Assembly (NCBI GenBank): GCA_963170055.1 | Contig: CAUJGJ010000397.1 | Coordinates: forward strand, 12,145,301-12,209,300 | Reading direction: 5' to 3' | Source: Halisarca cf. caerulea | Lineage: Eukaryota; Porifera; Demospongiae; Chondrillida; Halisarcidae | Length of the DNA: 64,000 bases | In this document: piece after piece, positions 1,081 to 55,730 of the stretch | Layout of the letters: each line of letters begins with the position of its first letter | Numbering within the stretch: the first letter of the stretch is position 1 | Translations under genes and position numbers: made by a program | The notes under the pieces: model-generated | Databases searched by the model: none | The model's input: only the letters and a program-made list of their open reading frames with translations | What the model was told of the DNA's origin: nothing

Positions 1081-2868
1081 TTGCCGAGCAATTTCACATC
1101 CTTGTGCACCTCGCCTGTAGGGTGTCCCTTGATAAGGGACGTACAGGTGGTGCTGACCCCGTTGAAGCTGTCCAATTTATGGGGTAGAGAGAGTCATGGA
1201 ACGCGGACTAGGAAGAGTAAGATTACCTGGACTAGTGCAAAAGATCAACATCTGATGGAGTTGTACCGGCTTAGCTCAGCTGATCTGTCACTGGGTGTGG
1301 CCAAGAAGCTCCTTCAGAATTGGAGGTCACACTATCCAGAGTACCCAACCACAGCAAATGCATTGATGAAGAGAGTCAGAACTCTGAAGAAGCATGAGAC
1401 AGCGCAAGTGCCTATGGCTGGTTCTGTAGCTGTGACCGAGGGGGAAGAGAGTTCTCTCCCCACCATCTCTGTGCCTGGGGACATAGAGAGGGATGGCCCG
1501 AACATCACCTCCTCGGATGTAAGTGATACTGGGATGCCTAGGGAGGACCCTGGTCCTGCCGAAGGTAGACCTGTAGACACTCAGGGCGAATCAGAAGAGG
1601 ATGTACTTGATTCTGATCCTGGACTGAGAGAGTTAGTAGAGAAGGTAGATCGGATCTACTGCCAGCTGCTGAGGCAGGGTGGAAACCTGAGAGGGAGAAG
1701 AAGCACGAAATGGAGAGGGGTACGTGTGGATGCTGATAGACATGCAGCGATCGACCAGTGGATGAAGGGGGTAAAACCCACGACTCCGCTGGAAGTGAAC
1801 TGTATGGTCTATGCGGCGGCTGTGTCCTTGTGGCCCCCTAAGCCTCCTGAGTCGAAGCTTGAGGAACGGAGGAGAGGAGAGAAGGGCCTCAAGTTTCAGC
1901 GGCTCATCAGCTGGCTAGATGTTGAGATCAAGAGGCAAAGAAGTAAGGTGGCAGCCACCCCGCGGCAAAGGTGGATCAGGCGGAAACTCTGCAGAGAGTT
2001 TCACACTCTTGACCTTTTGAGGCTCCTTGGGAAACGTGAGGAGACACTGGGGAAACTCAGAGTATGGAAGACCCAAGAAAAGCGCAAGAGGGAGCGACAT
2101 GAGTTTAAGCAGGTGAATGATCTCTGGACCGCCCAGAGGAAGTTCCCTCTGAACCGCTCTGACCATCTGCCTCAGCACGCACCTTCCAAGGGACGTGTTG
2201 AGGAGTTCTGGACTGACATCCTTGAGAGAGAAGGCCACATTGATGAGAGAGATGCGGAAGTTCAGGATTGGAAGAGGACAGGGCAATCCTCAGTAGGAGA
2301 CTTGCAACCGGATAGCAAGCTATGCCTGGACTTGGCACGATTTCGGAAAATCGTCAAGAAAGCCAAGCCATGGACAGCCCCTGGTCCAGATGGCATAGTG
2401 AACTTCTGGTGGAAAGTGTTTCCTGAAGCCACTCGGTCCCTGTGAAAGGTGACAGAGCAGCTTTTGAATGCAGAAACGCCTTTCCCGGATTGGTTGGTGA
2501 CGGGCAGAACTGTCCTGATCCCCAAGAGGAAAGGAGAGGAAGAGGACCCTGGGAATTACAGGCCCATAGCCTGTCTTAACACCCAGTACAAGTTTGCCAC
2601 TGCGGTGCTGGCTGACAGCCTTGCGGCTCACGTAGAAGCCACTGGAATCCTCCCTGTTGAGCAACGCACTCTCAGGAAAGGGGCCAGGGGTTGCGTGGAC
2701 TGTCTGGCCGTGGACAAGATGGTGATCACGGACGCCAAGTATAAGGGGTCTCGGACTCTGAGCGTGGGCTGGATCGATTTCGAGAAGGCCTACGACAGAG
2801 TTCCCCACAAGTGGGTTAACTCGGTGCTGATTACCGTCTCAGCACCCGGGTGGGTGAAAGCCTGTGTC
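1081..2868 (+). pseudogene. R2-like LINE protein, N-terminal half (Myb-like, RT fingers)
   Basis: The frame opens at or before 1081. Residues around ITWTSAKDQHLMELYRLS and NWRSHYPEYPTTANALMKR look like a Myb/SANT-type DNA-binding domain, as in R2-clade proteins. The reverse transcriptase begins with WTAPGPDGI (about 2371), then LIPKRKGEE..NYRPIAC, and the first catalytic block WIDFEKAYDRVPHKW. A TGA at 2443-2445 stops the frame; copy 2 has TGT (Cys) at that position, so this is a point mutation. The frame continues downstream until the IS3EU-type insertion at 2869. Compared with other R2-like proteins, the segment between the first catalytic Asp and the GDSLSP block is short in both copies, suggesting an older deletion. 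Confidence 0.75.
2863..2868. repeat. Target-site duplication, left copy (TGTGTC)
   Basis: TGTGTC lies immediately before the TATGG end of the giant element. AGTGTC (18785-18790) follows its right end, matching at five of six positions. In LINE copy 2 the corresponding uninterrupted sequence has the same length once a single 6-bp copy is counted, which fixes the duplication at 6 bp. Confidence 0.8.
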
Positions 2869-2978
2869 TATGGTGGCCCAGAAGGACAACGGGCCGATGC
2901 ACGGACCGACGCACGGAACGATGAACGGAACGATGAACAGAACGAAGAACGGAACGGTGCACGGACCGATGACTCGTT
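2869..2978 (+). repeat. Left terminal inverted repeat plus 12-bp subterminal array
   Basis: The 17-bp terminal repeat is followed from about 2891 by seven degenerate 12-bp units of the type CGATGCACGGAC. Variants read CGATGAACGGAA and CGGTGCACGGAC. The mirror-image array is found at the right end. Subterminal arrays of this kind commonly bind transposase; that role is inferred here. Confidence 0.8.
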
Positions 2979-3119
2979 AGCCCTACATTATACCAATTCG
3001 GCAATCCCGATTATCTACGCGATGGTACTCGACGATCGGTCGGTACGCTATGCAAATCAGTACTCAAACAGCAAAATAGCAACCGAAATAAAAGCTGTAG
3101 ACTGGCAGCTGACTTAATA

Positions 3120-4450
3120 TGCCTAATAAGAGCTTTACAGCTTGCAGATGATACATACCACAATTATATCACAATTATACTGTATGTGACACAAAGATGG
3201 CTGACTATTGAGACCCGAATTAAAGATGACGGACGATATCGAACAAATCATAAAAGGCAAGCGTTATTATTATTACTAGGGGAGAAGGTTGCAGCTAGTA
3301 GATTTGAGGCACGTTGCAGCGGATTTGCCAGTCGTACTGATTTTTCATCAGTCTATCATATACGGTAAACCTACTGCCAATCATATTTGCGTTAAACCAA
3401 ATTGTATTATTGTTATTATAATGCAGCTGTAGACTGATCATTAGTTTATTATAGGTATTAAATGTTTTGAAATTGTGTTTTCAATCACATTGTGTTTATT
3501 GTTGTTGCTGTCAGTGGTGTCGTAAGTTTTGTGCATGCAGTGATCATAGTTGATGTGTTCATTGTTATCTGGCACACTTGTTACTTGACAATGTTCTTGT
3601 TAATTTAAGTCTTAGACTAATTTAAAGTCCACATTTTCATTTGTTTTAAATTTGTTCATCATCATCATCATCATCATATTTAATTTTATTGTTATTTAAT
3701 TGCCACATCAGCCATGAATGTACAGTGTCACAGAGACTTAGTTAGATACTTGGGACTCATGTCTGCCCTCATTTAAAAGTGTCAGTATAAACTCTGGTAA
3801 TGTTTTCTGGCTCTTTTTGTATTTATAACTAATTTTTAAAAAGCATATATATTTTATTATTTTTTAACTGTATATTTTTCATGAAGAGTACCATGTGGCC
3901 AAAGAGCTGCAAATATCAACTGTATAATAATTATGATCATTGCATCATGCATAATTCCTTTCTATATAGAAGCAGAGCTGAGTTGCACCATGCACAATTT
4001 ATTGTTTGAACTTACTGGGTCAAAATGAAGATTATTGTCATGGTATTTCAAAACATTTCTTTGTAAAAGGATGAGGTCAGAACCCAATGCACTCCTCCCC
4101 CTAAATTAATCCACCCCATGCAGGCCAGGTTAGACGGTCTTGAGAGTATTAAGAGACATTTTGGGGCGCCATTGTTGTGAAATCGTTTGAAAGTTTTAAA
4201 TTTGTGTATTCCTTTGGAATGAGATAGCCTAGGGCTCCCAAGTGCTGGTCCACTTTGATGAAGATTCCCAATTATGGCAACAAACATTGTACAGACATTC
4301 CACAGATGTCCTGTAAATGGACATTTTTATCATGAATTATAGAATATGATGTATTATAATGTAAATCATAATACATGCATGGTCACATTATGATAGTGTT
4401 TTATATATTGATACTGGTTATTATCTTGCATCACATGCAAATGTTATAGA
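3120..4450. other. Non-coding left part of the giant transposon
   Basis: AT-rich sequence with no ORF I can support. It contains a short (CAT)n run near 3658-3675. It probably holds the 5' untranslated region or first intron of the transposase gene. Short open frames here, such as 3186-3368 and a minus-strand one near 4048-4287, show no recognisable motif. Confidence 0.5.
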
Positions 4451-4456
4451 GAAGTG

Positions 4457-5763
4457 TTTCTTTTCTGGTTGCCCATATAAGACAATTTTGAAAAGACTGC
4501 AATTGTGTCATGGGATACAAAGAAGGTATACTAATTAAAATGTTATGATTTTATTCACACATTTTATTTTAAATTAATACTAATATTATAAGTCTTCATT
4601 GTACCAGTTAATTTCTGATTCCATTTTAAAGCTTATCATGGCTCAAGCTTTATCTGTGCAAGCTTGGGCTCGGCCGCAAAGGAAGTCGCGGAAATTCAGA
4701 CAAGTATCTGGCAGAACAGATAGTTTTGGTACAAAATCAATGACATGTTTATGTCATTATTTATTTAATTTAGTGAAAAGTATATCTGCATGTGTATGTT
4801 GCCCTGCAGCGTACTGTCACAAAGATATAATGTTTTCAGTTAATATAGTATTCATGGGTTGGATATATGGAGTTTATCATTCATGTACTGACATAAGTAT
4901 ACTATTATAATTACCATATTTATCACAATTATGTATTTACTGGCATACTATTGTATAATAATTATAGAGAAACTTTGTCTCTTCAAGAAGATTGCTTGGA
5001 TATCGCACTGTGTGGCATATATTAAAGACAAAATATCATTTTTGTGTCACAAGGTAATATACGGTTGCTAAGTTATATTGTATGTTAATCAAATTATTAA
5101 TAAAATCATCTGGTGATCCACAGTGACTGAGCATGCATGCATTTGAATTTATACACTAGGAATGAAATGATGAAAATCATGGCGAGAGTAGATCCTGATG
5201 GGACAAAGATGAGGGCTAGCAGAAGATTGAAGAGAAGAGTGTACGCCTGCCAGGTATTACATGGAATTGTGCAATATTGATTACATTTCAATTTACTAAT
5301 CATCTAACCAGCAGCTATGACTATCATATTACTTTAACAATAATATATTTACTCGCAAGGGACCTAATCATGTTTGGCATCTGGATGGATATGACAAGTT
5401 AAGCCCCTATGGTCTAGCAATACATGGATGCATTGATGGGTATGTATATGGCATTGCACTATTATATTAGACCACTTAGTCTATTAAAATGATTAGAGTT
5501 GTTATTATAATTTTATTTGTCATGCTGCATGGAAGTAACTCTCCTGGCTTGCAGTAATTTCATCCCCCCTCCCTTTGTTAGATTCTCTAGAAAACTCTTG
5601 TGGCTAAAACTTGAACCGTTCAATCACAGCCCATACGTTGTTCTTCATCACTACTTGGATGCCATAATGGAAGCTGGAGGTGAGATGTTAAGTATATACT
5701 TTTGCTTCATGCAGGGTACTGTGTTTTGCTCCTGAGCATGTGCTAATATTATTATATACGTAT

Positions 5764-5824
<61 letters not shown>

Positions 5825-6039
5825 GTATATACCGGGAAAAGTTTCGCGGAGTAAAACTTTCGCGAATTCTCAGATTTCACGATTTTCACGAAAAAACTTT
5901 CCCGAATCGCTGCATTTCATATATAGATGTATCGAACAGAGCTAACATTCGTAAAATAAAGTTTTGCGAATGTGCTGTTGACTGCGCGAAATTTGCAAAA
6001 CTTTTAAAATTATCTCCACAAAGCTTTCCAAGTATACGG

Positions 6040-6081
<42 letters not shown>

Positions 6082-8833
6082 TAAATATATATGTGTGCAA
6101 ATTCCTACATCCCGCATGTACAGTACATTATACAGTACATATGTGCTGTGGGATGTAGGAATTTGCATATATAGTGTGCACTCAGTCCAACTAAACTCTG
6201 TCTAGCCCTATACCCGTCTAGCCTCATGTATGTGTAGCCCTATGCTCGTCTAGCCCTATGCCTGTCTTGTTCTAGTCTGATGTGGCCAGACCGAATTCCT
6301 CCATTTGCATTTCCATTTCCTCCTGCTAATGGAGGACTTCGGTCTGGCCACGTCAGACTAGTCTTGTTCTTTGCCCACCTAGCCCTGTACCGGTTTTGCA
6401 ACTTACCCTTGTTCCAAGTGTTTTTGGAGAATCCTTTTTTTGATAATGGCTTTGCACGATCCTGCGTCAATCCTACATCCTTTTACCATTTTTAATGGTT
6501 TTTATACACCCTTGTTCGTACGGTTTCTCCTTTTATAGCGAAATGGTTGCTTGAATAGTTTTCCACTGCAGTTGAGAAGGAACACGATCAAATCTTGTAA
6601 GATGAAGAAACTAGAAATCTATGCAGTTACCTGACTAATATCAATGTACCCATCTAGAAACAAATGCTAGAACAAAAACAGCACAGCAGTCGACGATCAT
6701 CGAAGTACAGACTTTTGTACGTACGCGTATGTCTAGTCTTGCATAGCCATTTTGCTGATCCAAAAATGGCTGATCCGGCGAATGTATGGGATTTGCCTAT
6801 TAATTTTTTTCTTGCTTTAGAAGTGTAGGTGTTGCTTCAAAACCTACAAAAGGCACTTCGCGATAACAATCAGAGCTGCACTGGCAAAAAATGAGACCGC
6901 TGGACCCTTCGTGGTGACCTGTAGCTTATTTCGAAAAAACGACGAAAAAGAATAATAAGAAGATGAAAAAGAAGAAGAATAACAATAATCTTAAAATGGT
7001 ACTGGTGTTGCGTAGTGCTACATTTTCGTCTAAAATTTCGAAGTTCTTCAAAGAAATTGGCCTATTTGCACTAATGTATGGTGGCCATGTTTTTCCGTGT
7101 CAATCCTACATATGGAGTACTACCATGGAGTACTACCGTACTCCATAATAAGTCAGGGACAAACAATCATGCAGGCTATATATAATAGTATTTTAATTTC
7201 CATGATAATTTACTTTCAAATTTGGATGTTCTTTGAGTACTATCATTGTTATGGCATAGTTGCATGCATTAATTAACAAAATATTGTCAATGATGGTACT
7301 AGGGTCGGATATAGTATTGATGCACACATGACCTTCCAAGTATTTACATTTTCCTGCACAACATATGTCAGGTTGTCCCAGAGTGTGCAGAGCTGATTAT
7401 GGCACTGAAAATGGAATGGTTGCAACAGCTCAAATTGCATTCAGAATGGACCGTGGGCTTGATGCAAGAGAAGCCTTTTTGTATGGTCCATCTACAAGAA
7501 ACACAGTGGGTAGCAATAGTAATACATGAGCTACTTCATGCAGACTGTTATATATTATTAATACTATTTGAATGTTACATTGTAATAAATGTGATTGATA
7601 TTTGTTACATGGAATTTGTATCCTTACATGCATGTCTGTAAACCACCATCATATCACAGAATATGCATGATAATGTATATTATATTCCCTGAGTCAGTCT
7701 TATCCTAAATTGTAGCTTAACATTACATGCATTTCGACAATTGAAAGCTGCATTGTCTATACTCAACAAATTAAGTAATTTGGTATAATTACTATAATTA
7801 TATCCCTTATTCATAATTATAGCGCATTGAGGCATGGTGGTCAGTCCTCAAAAGGTTTAAGACTGCATGGTGGATTGAAACATGCAAGGTTGGTTTATAC
7901 TACCTAAACACCATGCAATTTGATTATATTATTCTATTGATGCAGTGACAAAAAATTATTATACAATAATGAACATTTCTAAATATAGGCCCTTTTGGAT
8001 TCTGGAGATTTTAATCCTGAAAGCAATGTTCACAGGTAACAGATTCAGAGTTGTATGTATACAATGTTTTAATAGTTGTGAATCTGTTTCACGATCCCGT
8101 TAAATTTGTGTAGTTATGAGGAAAAATAATCATTAAATTTTAATGACTTAGAATCTACATGCAGTAAATAATAAAAAATGTACAATCTAGTAAGTACATG
8201 ACATTGCGTAACAATTACATGCAAATAGATACACGTCAGGTAAATTTTGCATAATTATTATTACACTGACATTTCTTTCATTTTCTTCTGGGGCTAGAAT
8301 GTGCATTCTTCATGCACTGCAGATACTGCCTAGCATATGCATTTGTACCTGTACTTGAAAGAGAACTCAATGAATTTAGGGACTCATGGAATTCACATAC
8401 TATTAGAAAAAATAGGAATTCCAATGGTCCTGCCGGGAAGCCAGAAGATCTTTATGACATGCCTGCAATGTATGGTAGGTTCAAATTCATGCATGTGCGT
8501 ATATACACAGAATGTGACAGTATCTCATTAATATACGTGTACATAGTTAGTACTATTATAATAATATGAAATGATTCATATTATATTAATTTTATGTAAT
8601 AAGGTAAAAGAGATCAGATTCAAGTGGTGGATGTAGAGCTTTGGAAGCATTTCTATTACAAAATAGAAAGTCAAGGAAATTCTGGATCTCAAAGGAAGAA
8701 ATTTTTCCCTCAATCCTTTAAGGCCCAAGCAGATGCTTTCACATCCTGCATATTTGGAATTAGTAGGAATGATTTTACATCCACGAACATAGTACAGTTT
8801 TACAAGTGTCTTGTGGATTACTTTCAATTATAG
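4457..8833 (+). CDS. IS3EU-type DDE transposase, about 11 exons
   Basis: Well-supported exons are 4991-5053, 5160-5253, 5360-5439, 5582-5679, 7372-7505, 7823-7888, 7989-8035, 8323-8474 and 8604-8833. All have GT-AG borders and compatible phases. N-terminal exons near 4457-4525 (PYKTILKRLQLCHGIQ) and 4663-4712 (LGLGRKG) are tentative. The spliced protein reads GYRTVWHIL, RVDPDGTKMRASRRLKRRVY, GPNHVWHLDGYDKLSPYG, CIDGFSRKLLWL, CRADYGTENGMV, RIEAWWSVLKRF and AYAFVPVLERELNEFRDSWN, ending ...CLVDYFQL. This is an integrase-core fold. The catalytic triad is D in WHLDGYD, D in RADYGTEN and E in RIEAWW, with about 38 residues between the last two. No lesion is visible in the supported exons. It is the likely mobilising enzyme of the 2869-18784 element. 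Confidence 0.8.
5779..5822. repeat. (TA)n microsatellite
   Basis: An uninterrupted TA dinucleotide tract lies in the intron between transposase exons ending at 5679 and starting at 7372. A second short tract is at about 6043-6074. Confidence 0.95.
6093..7149 (+). mobile_element. Hairpin-ended non-autonomous element (copy alpha)
   Basis: About 1 kb, lying in a transposase intron. One end is a hairpin with arms GCAAATTCCTACATCCC near 6098 and its complement near 6155. It then has TCTAGCCCTATGC-type repeats and a core. The other end is a palindrome built on GGAGTACGGTAGTACTCC. The same sequence occurs inverted at 33410-34698, and partial copies lie at about 44973-45122 and 50744-50850. It carries no transposase, so it must be mobilised in trans. 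I cannot assign its superfamily. Confidence 0.75.
6273..6360. mobile_element. 88-bp palindromic MITE with 9-bp duplication
   Basis: The ends are TAGTCTGATGTGGCCAGACC and its near-perfect complement, and most of the element can fold on itself. It is flanked by GTCTTGTTC at 6264-6272 and 6361-6369. The related copy at 33410-34698 lacks it and has GTCTTGCCC at this site. A 9-bp duplication is typical of Mutator-like elements. Confidence 0.85.
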
Positions 8834-9538
8834 TAAACTGCATGCATTTATATTAATTTGCCTAATTAATTCTATATATCATTATAATATATAGACACAG
8901 TTAGTTGCATCAAAACATTCATTCAATGTATAAACTATAATTTCTATATTTTAAACACAGATGATATATATATATATATATAAGGTATATGTCAGCATTT
9001 GGATTCCCTGCATTAATTGTGAGTGATCGCATAGTTACCAAATAATGATACATTACTCATAATTATTTAAATATAATAAGACATTAGAAGTTCAATTAGT
9101 TTGGTTGCATTATACACTTAACATAATATTACATGATTCATTGATAATATGAAAACATTAAATTATATGATTAAAGGCAGTAATTATAATTGTAATAAAA
9201 TAATTTTAAAAGCAATACAATGAAAACACAACAAAGTGATAATTTAAAATATTAATGAAAATAAAACAAATCTCTGAAAGTAAGGCCTGATGTACATAGT
9301 CGAAGTCATCATCATCATATTATGTCATTGATATAATGTGAATCAAAGCATAAACCTAAATCAGGCAGTATAATTGACAATGGAATAAATAAAGCAATGT
9401 AAGGATAACACAACAGTGATCAAATTGAAAGAAATCTCAGAAAAAGTAAAGCTCCCATATATAGTCAATGCATGAAACAACATATTGTCAATAAGGTATA
9501 CTGTTTCAGTTTGACTCATTGATGAGCTAGGATGATAC
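8834..9538. other. Convergent intergenic region inside the giant transposon
   Basis: AT-rich, non-coding sequence between the stop of the + strand transposase and the stop of the - strand kinase gene, which converge here. It contains a short (TA)n at about 8963-8982 and repeated ATCATCATCAT. No gene is seen. Confidence 0.6.
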
Positions 9539-15011
<5,473 letters not shown>

Positions 15012-15070
15012 CGGCCATTTGCCGACTCAAAACGCGGGTGGCCGAATCAAAGCACGTGGCACAGGACTAA
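15012..15070. promoter_or_regulatory. 59-bp divergent intergenic region
   Basis: Only 59 bases separate the kinase start codon (minus, 15011) from the hAT-type start codon (plus, 15071). It is GC- and CpG-richer than its surroundings and contains repeated CGGCCA. The arrangement implies a shared bidirectional promoter, or start sites inside the coding exons. It leaves no room for terminal repeats of a separately inserted hAT element on this side. Confidence 0.5.
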
Positions 15071-17425
15071 ATGGCCGGCCAGAAACGTTTGTCAGCTAGC
15101 ATTGAGAATAAAGAATTTGAGAGTAGTAGCAACAAGAAGCGTCGGGTATCTGTATCAACGTTTGAGAAGTGGCAGGGACAGTTCGATAAAGACCACAGCA
15201 CGCTAACATGGCTGAGGTGCGATAAAGATTCCAAAGATCGCGCGATCGTCGCTACGGTATGGTGCGATGTTTGCCGTAAGTTTGAAGAAAGTATACGCGG
15301 AATGAAGAATTTTTCGAACGTGTGGATTGAAGGTTCTTCTAATCATAAAACTAGCAATATTACAGACCATGCATCGAGTGAACAGCATAAAACGGCAATG
15401 TCTCGTCTTCGTATTCACCAAGCAAAGGCTAGAAATGAGAAGATTACCACATACTCCGCAATAGCCAAATCTCTTTTGACCATCAGCGACAGTGAAAAGG
15501 CAGCATTGAGAAAGAAGTTTGATATTTGCTTTGTTATGGCAAAAGAAGGAATACCATTTGCTAAGTATCCTGTTCTGTTCGACCTAGAAGCGCGACATGG
15601 TTGTGGCTTGGGTATTTCATACAAGAATGCTGGATCTGCTAGATCTTTCACATATTACATTGCTGAAAGTCAACGTCAAAGTTTCATAAATTTATTTTCT
15701 TCTGTACCATACTTCAGCTTTCTGCTAGATGGTTCCACGGATGAAGGTAATATTGAACAGGAAGTAGTGGTTCTTCAGTATTGTAGCAGAAACGATAATT
15801 CATCGGAAATCACATCAATCTGCCGATATTTTTCGATTCAAAGTCCTGGTAAAGCTGATGCGGATGGTCTCATTCAGTGCCTTGGGGATGCACTAAGAGC
15901 AATAGGAATTCACAATCTTCTTGAACGTGACAGTGTTGTTGAAGGTGAGCAAAAGCCTATTCTCATAGGTGGTTGTACTGATGGAGCTGCTGTGAATATA
16001 GCTCAACAAAGGGGCATGAGAGGCAAATTACAAGAGGTACTTCCATGGTTGTTCTGGGGATGGTGTTACACACATCGTCTAGAACTGGCTTGCAAAGATT
16101 CTCTATCCAGCCCAATTTTCAGGGAAGTGGAAGAGATGCTGCTCCGCTTATACTACATCTACCACAAGTCACCCAAAAAGAGTCATGAGCTCCTTGTCAT
16201 CGCCAGTGAGCTAAAGGAAATATTCAGTCTCCCAGATGGTGGAAGCATTCCAATAAGATCCCAAGGATCACGATGGATCACCCACAAGAGAAAAGCCCTA
16301 CAACGATTTGTAGACAGGTTTGGAGTCTACATTGCACACTTGACGAGCCTCTCTGAAGACTCTACAGTGAAAGGAGACGATAGAGCAAAGCTGAAAGGCT
16401 ATGTTAAGAAGTGGGTACAGAGTAAGTATCTGATTGCTAGTGCGATGTATATTGATATCCTAAAGGCACCCTCTATTCTGAGCTTAAGCCTACAGGAAGG
16501 TTCTCTTGACATCGTTCAGGCTCTCCATTGCATATTAAAGTCTGTGAAGGCTTTGAAATCACTCGCTAAAGGTGATCCTCGAGAATGGCCAACTGTTAAG
16601 CTTGTGATTGACAGGATCAAAGAGGAAAATGGAAGTTCAACTTACCAGAATGTCCCATTGAAAAGCTATAGTGAAAGCTCATTTGAACAATGTAAGACCA
16701 TAGCCCTGGATGGAGTTAGCCAATTAGATGATAATATGCGTTGCAGGCTTGAATGGTCAGATCCTAAATTATTGAGATGCCTCATTGTGTTCCTTGATAC
16801 ACAGTGCTGGTTGAAAGGAGCAACATCTAGTCTGATCTCTGATGATGAGGATGATGATGACATGGAAGAAATAAAATCTGCTGTTGAGTATATATCTTCT
16901 ATATTTTCTGTACCGCTAGAAGCAAGAGGAGCTAGTACCCTCATTATAATGGAAGAAATCGAGGATACTGTACAGTACGCTAGGAAATATCTAAATGTTG
17001 TGAATACTGAGTATAAGAAAGTGTGGTACAAACTCCACACTTGCCCAAATGCTAGAAATTGGCCACATGTTATACTTCTTAGTCAACTCTTGTTCAGCCT
17101 GCCCTTTTCAAATGCTCGTGTTGAGCAAATATTTTCAGCATTGAAAGTTGTGAAAACAGCACGCAGAACAAAGCTCCAAACTGGAACTCTCAATGACCTC
17201 CTAGAAATCTACATTGAAGGACCACAGTTAAGCGAGTTTTCAGCTGATCATGCCATTGAACTGTGGTGGAAGAGCTGCAACACTTCAAGACGTGTGAATC
17301 AGCATGAAAGGAAAGAGTACACAGCATCAAGTGGTTCAACATCATCAGAAACCCTTGCTACTGAAGCTGACAAAGAAGAGTTTTCTCTCAATGACTGGGA
17401 TGATTGGTTTATGGATGCTCAATGA
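15071..17425 (+). CDS. hAT-type transposase-like protein, 784 aa, intact
   Basis: A single intronless frame. The N terminus has a basic patch (NKKRRV) and a zinc-finger-like module beginning WCDVC at about residues 64-68, with following histidines (ITDHASSEQH), as in ZNF862/KIAA1586-related hAT proteins. The RNase-H-like core shows Asp in FLLDGSTDEG (about 219), Asp in GGCTDGAAVN (about 302), the CxxH motif in WCYTHRLELAC (about 330) and Glu in SNARVEQIFSA (about 682), the last within the hAT dimerisation region. All expected acidic residues are present, so it could be catalytic. It lies inside the IS3EU-type element and diverges tightly from the kinase gene. I see no hAT terminal repeats or 8-bp duplication around it, so I treat it as a component of the larger element or a domesticated hAT gene. 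Confidence 0.85.
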   Translation: MAGQKRLSASIENKEFESSSNKKRRVSVSTFEKWQGQFDKDHSTLTWLRCDKDSKDRAIVATVWCDVCRKFEESIRGMKNFSNVWIEGSSNHKTSNITDHASSEQHKTAMSRLRIHQAKARNEKITTYSAIAKSLLTISDSEKAALRKKFDICFVMAKEGIPFAKYPVLFDLEARHGCGLGISYKNAGSARSFTYYIAESQRQSFINLFSSVPYFSFLLDGSTDEGNIEQEVVVLQYCSRNDNSSEITSICRYFSIQSPGKADADGLIQCLGDALRAIGIHNLLERDSVVEGEQKPILIGGCTDGAAVNIAQQRGMRGKLQEVLPWLFWGWCYTHRLELACKDSLSSPIFREVEEMLLRLYYIYHKSPKKSHELLVIASELKEIFSLPDGGSIPIRSQGSRWITHKRKALQRFVDRFGVYIAHLTSLSEDSTVKGDDRAKLKGYVKKWVQSKYLIASAMYIDILKAPSILSLSLQEGSLDIVQALHCILKSVKALKSLAKGDPREWPTVKLVIDRIKEENGSSTYQNVPLKSYSESSFEQCKTIALDGVSQLDDNMRCRLEWSDPKLLRCLIVFLDTQCWLKGATSSLISDDEDDDDMEEIKSAVEYISSIFSVPLEARGASTLIIMEEIEDTVQYARKYLNVVNTEYKKVWYKLHTCPNARNWPHVILLSQLLFSLPFSNARVEQIFSALKVVKTARRTKLQTGTLNDLLEIYIEGPQLSEFSADHAIELWWKSCNTSRRVNQHERKEYTASSGSTSSETLATEADKEEFSLNDWDDWFMDAQ

Positions 17426-17647
17426 TACTACTTACTGTACTGGTTATTGGTTAATTGTCTAGTTGCATGTAATCTGATCAACTTTGCTTCTATTTTGTAA
17501 TCATTTCTTTCGGTTTCATTGATTTTGTGATAGGATTTAATATACGTACGTACAGTATTACGTTAAGTATTACAGTATGCAGTATATTTTGGGTTGTTCA
17601 TCAAAATGTTAATAATTTCAACGTCAGAACATGTCCGGCCACTCCTA

Positions 17648-18669
17648 TTAGTGCTCTGACATATTGTCAGATCTAGTCAAGAAAATTATATTTTTCACTG
17701 GAGTGTCTCTGATTGTGACGTCCTCATTTAAAATTCTAGCTCCACTAGAACGAAACAAACAGCACTCTCTCCCTGATAGGCTGTTAAATTTACTTTTCAG
17801 ACACTGAACTAGGGTGGCATAATCATCAGTCCTATTAGCTTTTACCTCTACATACTCTCCATCCCTTTTGAATATGCCCCGCTGAGATTTCTTCATTTGG
17901 CATACTGAGAGCTAATAGACAGAGACACTCTAATGTAATACTTCACTGCATTACTTAACGGTAACTGATATTATAATAATAAAAATTTAATAATTACGTA
18001 ACTATAAGTCAATGTCTACTGAGGGCATGTACTATAGCAAATCACTAATGTATGTGACCTAGTTTCTGATGCAGTCAGAACTGTTACAATAATACAAATT
18101 ATAGTGTCTGACCCCAAACACAAAATTTACATACTACTAGAGTGCAATGCAATCATGTCCTGTTGTCAGTACTAAAACTTACTACCGTTACATATGCACA
18201 TGCCTTTTCAAATATTACATTTAAAATAAGGCAAGTATTCTAAAACAACTTGACTTACAGATACAACATTGCGACTCCTAGATATTCCAGTAGTGGACTT
18301 TTTGTGGGAGCGAGTGGTTGTACTTATAGCAGAACGTTTCCTACTGAACAGGCTATGGCTGCGCTGCTTCCTCCTCAGGGCGTCCGCTTTTTCCTCGATT
18401 TCTGCAAATCGGCTGATCCCTGGCTCAGGCTCTTCACCGAATTCGTCATTGTCGTCGTCGTCATCAAATGTCTTTGACGCAATGAGCCTTTCCGCTGCTC
18501 TTTTAGCCGTGTGGCTAACATTCATCATCTCCATAGCCAACTTGTTTTTACCAACTGGAACTTTCTTGGACATAACTATTCTTGTCGAGCTAACCGTAGA
18601 CTTAACCCTTCCAGACGTCCGCCATTTTGTTTTGTACGTATAGTTTCCATAATACTTTCCGCACATCAC
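17648..18669 (-). CDS. Two-exon gene at the right end of the giant transposon
   Basis: Exon 1 is about 18669-18250. It encodes a basic N terminus, an acidic run (FDDDDDNDEFGEEPEPG), a possible coiled segment (ISRFAEIEEKADALRRKQRS) and an Arg/Ser-rich tail. A donor GTAAGT or GTCAAG lies near 18258-18250. Exon 2 is about 17904-17648 with acceptor CTCTCAG. It encodes EYVEVKANRTDDYATLVQCLKSKF and VTIRDTPVKNIIFLTR, which could form a small ubiquitin-like fold. I do not recognise the protein. It starts only about 115 bp from the right end, so it may be a second gene of the transposon. Confidence 0.5.
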
Positions 18670-18674
18670 TCAAT

Positions 18675-18784
18675 AATGTTGTTCCGTTCCGTCCATCGTT
18701 TCGCGCTTCGTTCCGTGCATCGGTCCGTGCACCGGTCCGTGCACCGTTCCGCGCATCGGTTCGTTACCCTTCTGGGCCACCATA
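18675..18784 (-). repeat. Right terminal inverted repeat plus 12-bp subterminal array
   Basis: On the minus strand this reads TATGGTGGCCCAGAAGG, then about six 12-bp units of the CGATGCACGGAC type (variants CGGTGCACGGAC, CGAAGCGCGAAA). It mirrors the array at 2869-2978. AGTGTC at 18785-18790 is the right copy of the target duplication. Confidence 0.85.
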
Positions 18785-18790
18785 AGTGTC

Positions 18791-52267: not shown

Positions 52268-52463
52268 ATTTGTATCCTGGCAACCGTTCACTGTTTACTG
52301 TTGGTGTGTACAGTCTCATCTAGAGTTGATCAGTTTTAGCCACTTACCCTACCAATTGACAGTTATTGACATCAATTAGGAAGTGTGCATATATCAGTGA
52401 CCTGTGCTACATCACTAATGTCAGCACACTTTTTCCTTTGATCCACCCATAATTTGCCCCACA

Positions 52464-55290
52464 ACACCTTAGCTTGCTCATTTTCTGTTACAGGAACGGG
52501 ACTCATTTCCCACCATCTCAGCGGCACCTCAAACCCATAATGCCTACAGATGTTGTAGTACACGACCTGCAAAGCCTTATTGTGCCTCTCCATGTAGAGA
52601 TTAAATCCCTTCTTCTTGTACTGGTTCAAGATGTACTTGATGGTCTCGATTCCCTCACCACAGTGACGGCAGTGTGTTACGCCTGCCTGTTTCATGCAAT
52701 TAGCCTTAAACGATCTCGCATAAAGGCAGTCGTCCTGAGTGGCGATGATAAGGCTTTCTGTTGTGCTTTGGAGCTGACCTTTGCACATCCACCGAAACGA
52801 CAAGTCAACATTGAGAGACGTGTTTGAATGCACGTCACTCAAGAATTTCCCCTGATGACTTGTGAGCAGCTCTAAGTTGCAACTGAGACATCTGAGCCTT
52901 CTGAAGCTCCCGAAGGATCCTCATCCGACCCGATGGAGGGTTAGCTGTCCACTCCACCTCACGTCCAGTCCCACGCAGGATCTTGCGTGCTGTTGGAGAC
53001 AAGCTGAAGGTACTCTTCTCCGCCCACAGAAGCGAGTGCTTGCGCACTGCCTCCATGAGTGGATCCTGCGATGACACGAGATAGACGGCATGACTTACAA
53101 TCTCCTGCTCCCAGACAAGCAGAAGGCTCTGGAGCCCCCTACCCCCCCCCTGTGAGCAAGGGAGATACAGCCTCTCCTGGGAGGCGTTTAGGTGGTGTGA
53201 ATGATACCTGCACAAGACCTTCCCTGTGAGAATGTCCAAGCCCTGCAGCTCCTTCCCAGTCCACTTCACTGTCACAAAACAATACCTCAAAAGAGATACT
53301 GTACTGCCAAGGTGTTGGTGGCATCGACCTTGTTCTTGGAGTTAAGTTGCAACTTCCATATCTTATGGAGCCTCTTCCTATACTCGCAAGTAACACAGTC
53401 CTTCACCAGCTTGTCATCAGTTGCAAACAAATGGTCAATTCCAAATACATGTACGTATCCTGGGGTGGCAAACACCGCATTGAATCAGGTTCCGGACTAG
53501 GGTTGTCAGGCCCCGGTAGTACCTTCCCCTTCTTCAAGTGTGCTGTCCCGCACTTCTTCAAGCCTAATTTCATGCCGATCGCACTCGCAACTCTATCCAC
53601 TACAGATAGGGTCTCATTCAGAGCAGCTGGGGTCTCGGCATAAACTTTCAAATCATCTATGTATAGCATATGCAATATGCTACTCTACAGCGTGCTGCGT
53701 CTGATTCTGTACCCTGTGCTCTTCCCTATCGCATGCAATAGAGGAAAGTGGACAGACAGAACAGAAGTGGAGACAAGGAATCCCCTTGGAACAGACCACG
53801 CTTGTAGGCAATTAGCTGTGTTCTTACATCCCCCCCCCCCCCTCCTCCCTAACCTCCATCGCCATTCTCCACTGCTTCTGCAGGCAACCAACAGTGGCTT
53901 TTCACCTACTCAGGTGCTGAGACGGTACTCAGTACTGAGTTAACCCACTTGCAGGGAACTCTGTTGTAGGCCTTCTCAAAATCGATCCAGCCCATGCTCA
54001 GAGTTCGGGACCCCTTATACTTGGCGTCCGTGATCACCATCTTGTCCACGGCCAGGCAGTCCATGCAACCCCTGACCCTTTTCCTGAGAGCACGTTGCTC
54101 AGCAGGGAGGATTCCAGTGGCTTCCATGTGAGCCGCAAGGCTGTCAGCCAGCACCGTAGTGGCAAACTTATATTGGGTGTTAAGACAGGTAGCTATGGTC
54201 CTGTAATTCCAAGGGTCCCTGTTCCTCTCCTTTCCTCTTGGGGATCAGGACAGTTCTGCCCATCACCAACTAATCTGGGAAAGACGTCTCCATGTTCAAG
54301 AGCTACTCTGTCACCTTACACAGGGACCGAGTGGCTTCAGGAAACACTTTCCACCAGAAGTTCACAATGCCATCTGGACCAGGGGCTGTCCATGGCTTGG
54401 CTTTCTTGATGATTTTCCAAAATCACGCCAAGTCCAGGCAAAGCTTGCTATTTGGTTGCAAGTCTCCTACTGAGAATTGCACTGTCCTCTTCCAATCCTG
54501 AACTTCCGCATCTCTCTAATCAATGTGGCCTTCTCTTTCTAGGATGTCAGCCCAGAACTCCTCAACACGCCCCTTGGTAGGTGCGTGCTGAGGCAGATGG
54601 TCAGAGTGGTTCAGAGGGGACTTCCTCTGGGTGGTCCAGAGATCATTCACCTGCCATTCTCATGTTGCTCCCTCATACTATTGAGTTTTCCCAGTGTCTC
54701 CTCACGCATCCCAAGGAGCCTCAAAAGGTTGAGAGTATGAAACTCCTTCTTTCCACCAGATCCACTTTTGCCGTGGGGTGGCTGCCACCTTGCTTCTTTG
54801 CCTCTGCTGATGAGCCGCCGAAACTTGAGGCCCTTCTCCCCTCTCCTCTGTCCCTCAAGTTTCGACTCGGGAGGTTTTGGGGGCTGCAAGGACACAGCCG
54901 CCGCATAGACCAATACAGTTCACTTCAAGCAGAGTCTTGGATTTTACCCCCTTCATCCACTGGTCGATCGCTGCATGTCTATCAGCATCCACGCATACCT
55001 CTCACCATTTTGTGCTTCTTCTCCCTCTCAGGTTTCCACCCTGCCTCAGCAGCTGGCAGTAGATCCGATCTACCTTCTCTACCAACTCTCTCAGTTCAGG
55101 ATCAGAATCAAGTACATCCTCTTCTGGTTCGCCCTGAGTATATACAGGTCTAGACCACCTTCGCGAAGCAGGACCAAGGTCCTCCTCCCTGGGCATCCTG
55201 GTATCACTTACGTCTGAGGAGGTGATGTTTGGGCCACCAATCTCCATGTCCCCTGGCAGAGACGGTGGGGAAAGAACTCTATTCCCCATT
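52464..55290 (-). pseudogene. R2-like LINE protein copy 2, degenerate
   Basis: Fragments in order: N-terminal linker (55289-55002), linker (54913-54647), and RT entry and fingers including ILPAEQRALRKRVRGCMDC and MGWIDFEKAYNRVPCKWV (54154-53906). Next come palm YIDDLKVYAE with KKCGTAHLKKGKV (53675-53403), thumb/linker (53290-52835) and THCRHCGEGIETIKYILNQY (near 52660). The YIDD replaces YMDD of copy 1, and a Tyr replaces the last Cys of the knuckle. Frequent shifts show it is older or faster-decaying than copy 1. At the position of the copy-1 stop (2443) it has TGT. Confidence 0.75.
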
Positions 55291-55730
55291 GGTCGCAGCT
55301 ACAGAATCAGCCATAGGTACTTCCGCCATCTGTTGCTTCTTCAGAGATCTTACTCTCTTCATCAACGCATTTGCTGTAGTGAGGTACTCTGAATAGTGTG
55401 ATCTCCAATCTGAAGGAGCCTCTTGGCCACACCCAGTGACGGATCAGCTGAGCTAAGCCGGTACAGCTCCATCAGATGTTGTTGATCTTTTGCACTAGTC
55501 CAGGTAATCCTACTCTTCCTAGTCCATGCTCCATGACTCTCTCTGCCCCGTAAATCGGTCAGCTTCTACAGGGTAAGCACCACCTGTAATGTCCCTTATC
55601 AAGGGACACCCTACAGGCGAGGCACACAAGGATGTGAAATTGCTTGGCAAGCCAGCGTTCGTATCCTCTTGTGTGCACCTGGGATTACTGTCACCTAACG
55701 AGTTCTTTCTTCTTGTAATCCAGTTTGACG
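52464..55730 (-). mobile_element. R2-like LINE copy 2, 3'-truncated, lacking the 15.9-kb insertion
   Basis: Aligns with copy 1 (1009-2868 plus 18791-20210). At the position where copy 1 carries the giant transposon, copy 2 (about 53890-53910) is continuous. Similarity ends at 52464, after AAGGTGTTGTGGG, so the restriction-like endonuclease region is missing. Confidence 0.85.

Follow-up and report, generated by a model that had tools for sequence, protein, structure and literature searches.

Most eukaryotic DNA transposons have been described by their transposase alone. Among the described systems, IS3EU/GingerRoot transposons have TA..TA termini, a target-site duplication (TSD) of usually 6 bp and a DDE transposase (PMC10045372), and the IS3EU members of rust fungi have the termini TAYGG..CCRTA, terminal inverted repeats (TIRs) longer than 30 bp and a 6-bp TSD (PMC12730594). 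The TET/JBP-bearing fungal IS3EU families combine the transposase with an alpha-kinase and a TET/JBP gene (Kojima 2025, PMC12730594), and the authors who described Styx proposed a two-protein IS3EU ancestor (PMC10853768). The present analysis concerns a stretch of 64,000 nucleotides (the window) from the sponge Halisarca cf. caerulea (assembly GCA_963170055.1, contig CAUJGJ010000397.1, positions 12,145,301 to 12,209,300 of the forward strand), in which a preliminary description, made from the sequence alone, had placed a 15.9-kb cargo-bearing IS3EU-type transposon. As a whole, the element is read here as a two-gene, cut-and-paste IS3EU-type transposon with a transposase and an old, selected kinase gene, with a probability of about 0.78. 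The starting assumption that IS3EU elements carry mainly a transposase has been outdated by the fungal families with an alpha-kinase and a TET/JBP gene (PMC12730594).

A transposon insertion in a LINE

As shown in Table 1, window positions 2869-18784 are a TIR-bounded transposon insertion in a long interspersed nuclear element (LINE). The element ends, TATGGTGGCCCAGAAGG and CCTTCTGGGCCACCATA, are perfect 17-bp inverted repeats, and the inverted repeat reaches about 100 bp at 80% identity, in keeping with the TIRs of more than 30 bp in rust IS3EU members. The 17-mer end occurs, with at most one mismatch, at 78 places in the 194-Mb source genome, and the pattern read backwards as a control occurs at none, so that the ends cannot be ascribed to chance. 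The paralogous LINE copy within the window aligns across the site without interruption; it is 87.8% identical to the left flank and 92.7% identical to the right flank, and has a single 6-mer at the junction. The perfect ends, the flanks matching at five of six positions and the uninterrupted LINE copy, all proposed in the preliminary description, are borne out by these alignments.

Table 1. Features of the element and its surroundings, in window coordinates.
Feature	Position	Strand	Remarks
Left target-site duplication	2863..2868		TGTGTC; 5/6 match to right
Left terminal inverted repeat	2869..2968	+	outer 17 bp perfect; about 100 bp at 80% identity to right end
IS3EU-type (Pfam rva_4) DDE transposase gene	4440..8833	+	profile match, exon tests, Dysidea protein alignment
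Transposase exon blocks	4440-4523, from ~4630, 4983-5054, ~5155-5253, 5360-5439, 5582-5679, 7372-7505, 7823-7888, 7989-8035, 8323-8474, 8604-8833	+	
Second private insertion	6453..7343		about 0.9 kb, boundaries approximate; outside native element
Kinase gene, 14 exons	9676..18573	-	gene model; 775 codons with stop when intact
Kinase domain, exons 8-14, IRAK/RLK-like	9676..11399	-	VAIK, HQDIK, NILID, DFG present in copy C3
Kinase exons 8-14	11399-11248; 11068-10965; 10875-10770; 10596-10484; 10379-10199 (end disrupted); 9998-9936; 9855-9676	-	
Kinase exons 1-7	18573-18259; 17881-17699 + 14985-14820 (exon 2, hAT-split); 14701-14539; 13611-13447; 13363-13283; 13136-12888; 12634-12536	-	
Kinase exon 2, predicted ubiquitin-like domain	14820..17881	-	interrupted by nested hAT
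Nested hAT-type element	14986..17700	+	15-bp TIR CAGTGAAAAATATAA; 5-bp TSD GAGTG; open reading frame 15071-17425; outside native element
Right terminal inverted repeat	18685..18784	-	pairs with left end
Right target-site duplication	18785..18790		AGTGTC; 5/6 match to left
Paralogous LINE copy without insertion (empty-site control)	52458..55699	-	alignment across site

Six further two-ended copies were found in the source genome, labelled C312 (12,644 bp), C226 (16,819 bp), C150 (12,799 bp), C62 (12,814 bp), C3 (12,631 bp) and C69 (17,804 bp). Four of them (C312, C150, C62 and C3) span 12.6-12.8 kb, which is the likely size of the native element, and match the core of the window copy end to end, with no extra genes seen. 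An eighth copy, C369 near 13.21 Mb, matches the window copy over most of its length, its ends lying outside the sequence read. The right part of C69 derives from another element lineage, and C369b, C78 and C40 have the same ends with diverged interiors; overall, elements with two ends measure 8.4 to 17.8 kb. In the long shared blocks, identity to the window copy is 96-99%, differences in repeat length being the main cause of loss, and the kinase coding sequence has only 17 variable sites over eight copies. Counts of nonsynonymous and synonymous changes are uninformative among copies this similar; the near-identical L041 and C69 were left out of one sequence comparison owing to repeat matches. 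The family to which the window interval belongs is young and nearly uniform, and the presence of copies at different places suggests that the family is mobile. Two shorter elements, C412:2255082-2258453 (L040) and C78:1469675-1478063, have both ends and the first kinase exons; the kinase domain was not found in either, and they are probably internal deletion derivatives.

Over the ten two-ended copies compared, the 6-bp flanks agree at five or more positions in 4/10, versus 1/90 mismatched pairings. The match is 6/6 in C369b and C78, 5/6 in the window copy and C62, and 0-4/6 in the other six. In C312, C226, C150, C62, C3 and C69 the coding sequence is almost identical, yet the 6-bp duplications are imperfect or shifted, and the flanks match at only 1/6 positions in C3 and 0/6 in C312 despite the very young age of these copies. 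The termini TATGG...CCATA are present at both ends in nine of the ten, the right end of C312 being altered. At C312:417083-417102 and C78:1469651-1469675, element ends lie a few bases from the end of another element; the elements seem to insert beside each other's termini. Other copies with the same ends, varied payloads and 6-bp duplications had been named as a check on the claim; six more two-ended copies do exist, but the payload is the same in C312, C150, C62 and C3, and perfect duplications occur only in C369b and C78.

Two insertions are private to the window copy. The nested hAT-type element has an open frame of 784 amino acids, for which the Pfam hAT profile reached 20.7 bits (E = 0.00036), just below the cut-off of 21.4, and a C17orf113-type zinc finger passed. 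This insertion is absent in all five other copies containing the site (C312, C226, C150, C62 and C3), and C69 is without that region. The duplications made by hAT elements are usually 8 bp, and families with 5 bp are named hAT5 (PMC12730594). For the second private insertion, no clear TIR or TSD was found. Because of these two insertions the length of 15.9 kb is inflated, although the element is genuine and large. The hAT-type protein, formerly counted as a payload gene, was rejected as cargo, since it belongs to a transposon with its own TIR and TSD that landed in the window copy only.

The transposase matches the Pfam rva_4 integrase core with E = 1.2e-36. The nearest protein is from the sponge Dysidea avara (51% identity over 99% of the query) and aligns in nine collinear blocks from 4440 to 8818, two out-of-order matches (E of 4.4 and 7.6) having been dropped; both results confirm the multi-exon DDE transposase of the preliminary description. 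The relatives are rva_4 proteins, and the named ones are animal. We take the DDE residues to lie in HLDGYDK, RADYGTEN and RIEAWW. In the window copy, the exons from 5155 onward are open, and over the eight exons tested internal stops are absent from the window copy, C312, C62 and C3; C150 has one stop, and exons are missing in the sequence read of C226, C69 and the 13.21-Mb copy. A spliced transposase, the protein P0122, agrees with that of locus L045 in seven blocks, six of them at 93-100% and one, which bridges introns, at 73%. The same genome has a second, larger group of rva_4 transposases that continue uninterrupted across these exon borders; the N-terminal region of the kinase is mostly lacking there.

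Structure and integrity of the kinase gene

The right gene lies on the strand opposite to the transposase, and its first exon adjoins the right TIR. Its protein consists of a predicted ubiquitin-like N-domain, a middle region and an IRAK/RLK-like kinase domain. The gene model of the intact copy C3, with 775 codons including the stop, matches PF00069 at E = 3.2e-38 when spliced, and no alpha-kinase family appears among its profile matches at E up to 1. Judged by its motifs, the kinase domain is active-looking; among solved structures, the nearest are plant receptor-like kinases and IRAK4.

All 14 exons are open in five of the eight copies (C312, C226, C150, C62 and C3). It had been considered that other copies might never hold the kinase or right-end genes; these five carry the whole gene, including the right-end exons. 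In the window copy, described earlier as holding a full kinase gene, a kinase gene is present but broken, as exon 2 is split by the hAT element and only 181 of the 193 bases of exon 12 can be aligned. The gene is incomplete in the sequence read of C69 and of the 13.21-Mb copy.

The exon model is supported by two proteins. The JGI protein P0223 joins exons 1 and 2 over a removed intron, with a slightly earlier start of exon 2 than in the model, and P0222 joins exons 4, 5 and 6 as modelled, with an exon 7 that is slightly longer, beginning some codons earlier. Their contigs are short (about 3.3-3.6 kb) and skip introns, so that they are probably derived from RNA; intron sequence at the ends of both proteins points to incomplete splicing. 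The small separate right-end gene of the preliminary description was rejected on the gene model and the P0223 join, as it is the start (exons 1-2) of the kinase gene. A protein search with the N-terminal region returned five proteins, three of which (P0224-P0226) resemble other element copies of this genome.

Among the matches listed for the kinase protein (120 of 149), most are plant and bacterial kinases at 25-35% identity and 16-41% query cover, and none is full-length. The N-terminal 333 amino acids matched no Pfam family at E up to 10, including the header family of Crinkler-type proteins (in which a ubiquitin-like header is joined to an effector domain), in a HMMER search that may miss remote members, and a PDB sequence search gave only RIG-I matches that are not significant (E of 0.5-0.76). 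One middle-region exon, modelled alone in AlphaFold, reached a predicted local distance difference test score of only 37.7, so that the conserved C..W..YxC alignment pattern would be the sole basis for calling this region Ig-like.

The kinase as an old component of the element

The kinase gene is an old component of the element that has been under selection. The gene recurs, exon for exon, in diverged elements; in the comparison of C3, C40, L044 and L045, identity is 57-78% in the kinase domain and 55-63% in the transposase. Between C3 and C40, synonymous sites are near saturation and omega (the nonsynonymous-to-synonymous rate ratio) of the kinase domain is 0.07; for the close pair C40 and L042, omega is 0.23 over all compared codons. 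In the intron-split transposase lineage, a kinase gene lies within 15 kb at 22 of at least 27 detected loci, always on the opposite strand (22/22). At uninterrupted-class loci, numbering at least 67, the N-terminal region was found at three, which may be misclassed because the hits contain read-through stops. The 27 and 67 loci are lower bounds, as they come from the 132 candidates scored out of 242. The co-location count used 85 rows chosen from 149 kinase-domain rows, with further exons per locus mostly omitted, and 30 N-terminal rows, one per locus; with N-terminal matches alone and two C312 elements merged it was 18/26, and with these elements split and kinase-domain matches of at least 39% included it was 22/27.

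Nineteen of the 85 kinase-domain rows lie near a transposase of the lineage, at 39-100% identity. In the other 66, only C64:9385, C369:381190, C89:1682155 and C369:12008971 exceed 41%, and for two of them an element end lies no more than about 4 kb away (C369:385333, and C89:1680031 with one mismatch). Neither transposase nor element end was detected near two loci of the kinase lineage. L043 (C369:12006000-12012000) and C64:7527-9600 are diverged relatives of the kinase gene, with no transposase detected in their vicinity. In L043, two reading frames share exon 12, and a search for exons 13-14 found neither. Among C3, C40 and L039 the kinase gene is mosaic: in the window family, the kinase domain shares 78% identity with C40 and 65% with L039, whereas the middle region shares 73% with L039 and 54% with C40, as if element lineages exchanged gene parts.

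No close host donor of the kinase was found among the 132 candidates scored out of 356. The co-location, the constant orientation and the conserved kinase domain indicate a long-standing element gene instead of recent cargo, and recent capture from the host was rejected on omega, orientation and the lack of a close donor among these candidates. The central proposal of the preliminary description, a large IS3EU-type element that carries and moves with a kinase gene, is supported by the five further whole-gene copies and the diverged relatives.

Beyond the observed ends, flanks, copies, exon structure, gene order, past selection and traces of spliced RNA, we infer every biochemical step of the following scheme. 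After binding to the TATGG... ends, the DDE transposase of the left gene would cut out the 12.6-kb unit and integrate it elsewhere, creating a 6-bp target duplication. The right gene would yield the three-part protein, and its kinase might phosphorylate the transposase or a host partner, to which the ubiquitin-like domain would bring it, and thereby license or time transposition. This accessory role is put forward tentatively, at slightly under even odds. A little more doubtfully, IS3EU transposition may have a protein kinase among its core components. Unrelated kinase families would then have supplied it on at least two occasions (an alpha-kinase in fungi, and in this animal an IRAK/RLK-like kinase joined to a ubiquitin-like domain), each time with the two genes fixed in opposed orientation; a kinase function in the superfamily is made more credible by the presence of an alpha-kinase in opposed orientation in the TET/JBP-bearing fungal families (PMC12730594). 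If true, the movement of this eukaryotic transposon lineage would be under the control of a signalling enzyme of its own. The retention of the kinase through deep divergence and the different kinase of fungal members make it testable whether phosphorylation controls the element's own movement or the host.

The latter forms the strongest alternative, although an unlikely one: in the same two-gene element, the kinase would act on the host, blocking either silencing or an innate response, IRAK-type or linked to ubiquitin, and in this way make the host tolerate the element. The closeness to plant receptor-like kinases and IRAK4 and the predicted ubiquitin-like domain are consistent with this, and the fungal TET/JBP gene is thought to help such elements escape silencing (PMC12730594). 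However, no host target is in evidence, the closeness to IRAK4 may reflect the kinase family alone, and the association of kinase and transposase across lineages is equally explained by a role in transposition. It is very improbable that the kinase is a passenger, captured from a host by chance and carried without function. Large eukaryotic elements do acquire genes, and the two kinase-lineage loci without detected transposase or end would fit; but the kinase is common to element lineages at 55-63% transposase identity, is strongly conserved against near-saturated synonymous sites, keeps its orientation at all 22 loci where it was found and has no close donor among the candidates scored.

Fungal Starships are large elements with variable non-transposase cargo. 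A giant cargo transposon in this sense, with a payload varying from copy to copy, is still less probable here. The extra hAT protein and the size range of two-ended elements speak for it, but the former is nested with its own 5-bp TSD, and the kinase gene is constant. The extra length of C226, C69 and C369b consists of stretches given only as N and of open reading frames that look like retroelements by eye, among them those of at least 110 amino acids in C69 and C369b. As far as the copies could be read, a variable payload was rejected on the identical content of C312, C150, C62, C3 and the window core, and the label of cargo, like the Starship comparison of the preliminary description, is unfit because the same second gene stands in the same orientation at 22 of the at least 27 loci. 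An assembly join or segmental duplication, favoured by nothing more than the imperfect target duplication, is extremely improbable in view of the empty site in the paralogous LINE and of seven two-ended copies that share their ends but differ in their flanks.

Comparison with known systems

In a literature search on IS3EU elements with a kinase, which left most subscription journals outside, no description of a conventional kinase in an animal IS3EU element was found in the text available, nor any title on kinase-bearing animal DNA transposons or paper on IS3EU in Amphimedon. The main text of the IS3EU/GingerRoot paper (PMC10045372) does not contain the word kinase; the likeness to those elements, in TA..TA termini and a DDE transposase, is drawn from the published description instead of Repbase sequences. 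Styx of Zymoseptoria is also large and IS3EU-related; it has four coding sequences, and a kinase as an element gene is not described in the available text (PMC10853768). Teratorn is likewise large with extra genes, but carries a viral genome (PMC6431247), whereas the sponge element has one constant second gene. Starships share with it a large size and non-transposase genes; here, by comparison, that one constant gene sits in a 12.6-kb unit.

The closest likeness is to the TET/JBP-bearing fungal IS3EU families, in which transposase and kinase genes also lie on opposite strands; the termini and TIR length of the rust members are similar, and the TSD size may be (PMC12730594). Theirs is an alpha-kinase, with the TET/JBP gene between, whereas the kinase of the sponge element is a conventional one (PF00069) that has a predicted ubiquitin-like domain; a TET/JBP gene was not noticed there, no profile search aimed at one having been run. 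A gene annotated as a host kinase in a genome of this sort may belong to a transposon. What had been suggested as a new type of animal mobile element is neither a new class nor Starship-like; the novelty lies in the sort of second gene that an animal IS3EU member carries, the kinase partner having a fungal precedent.
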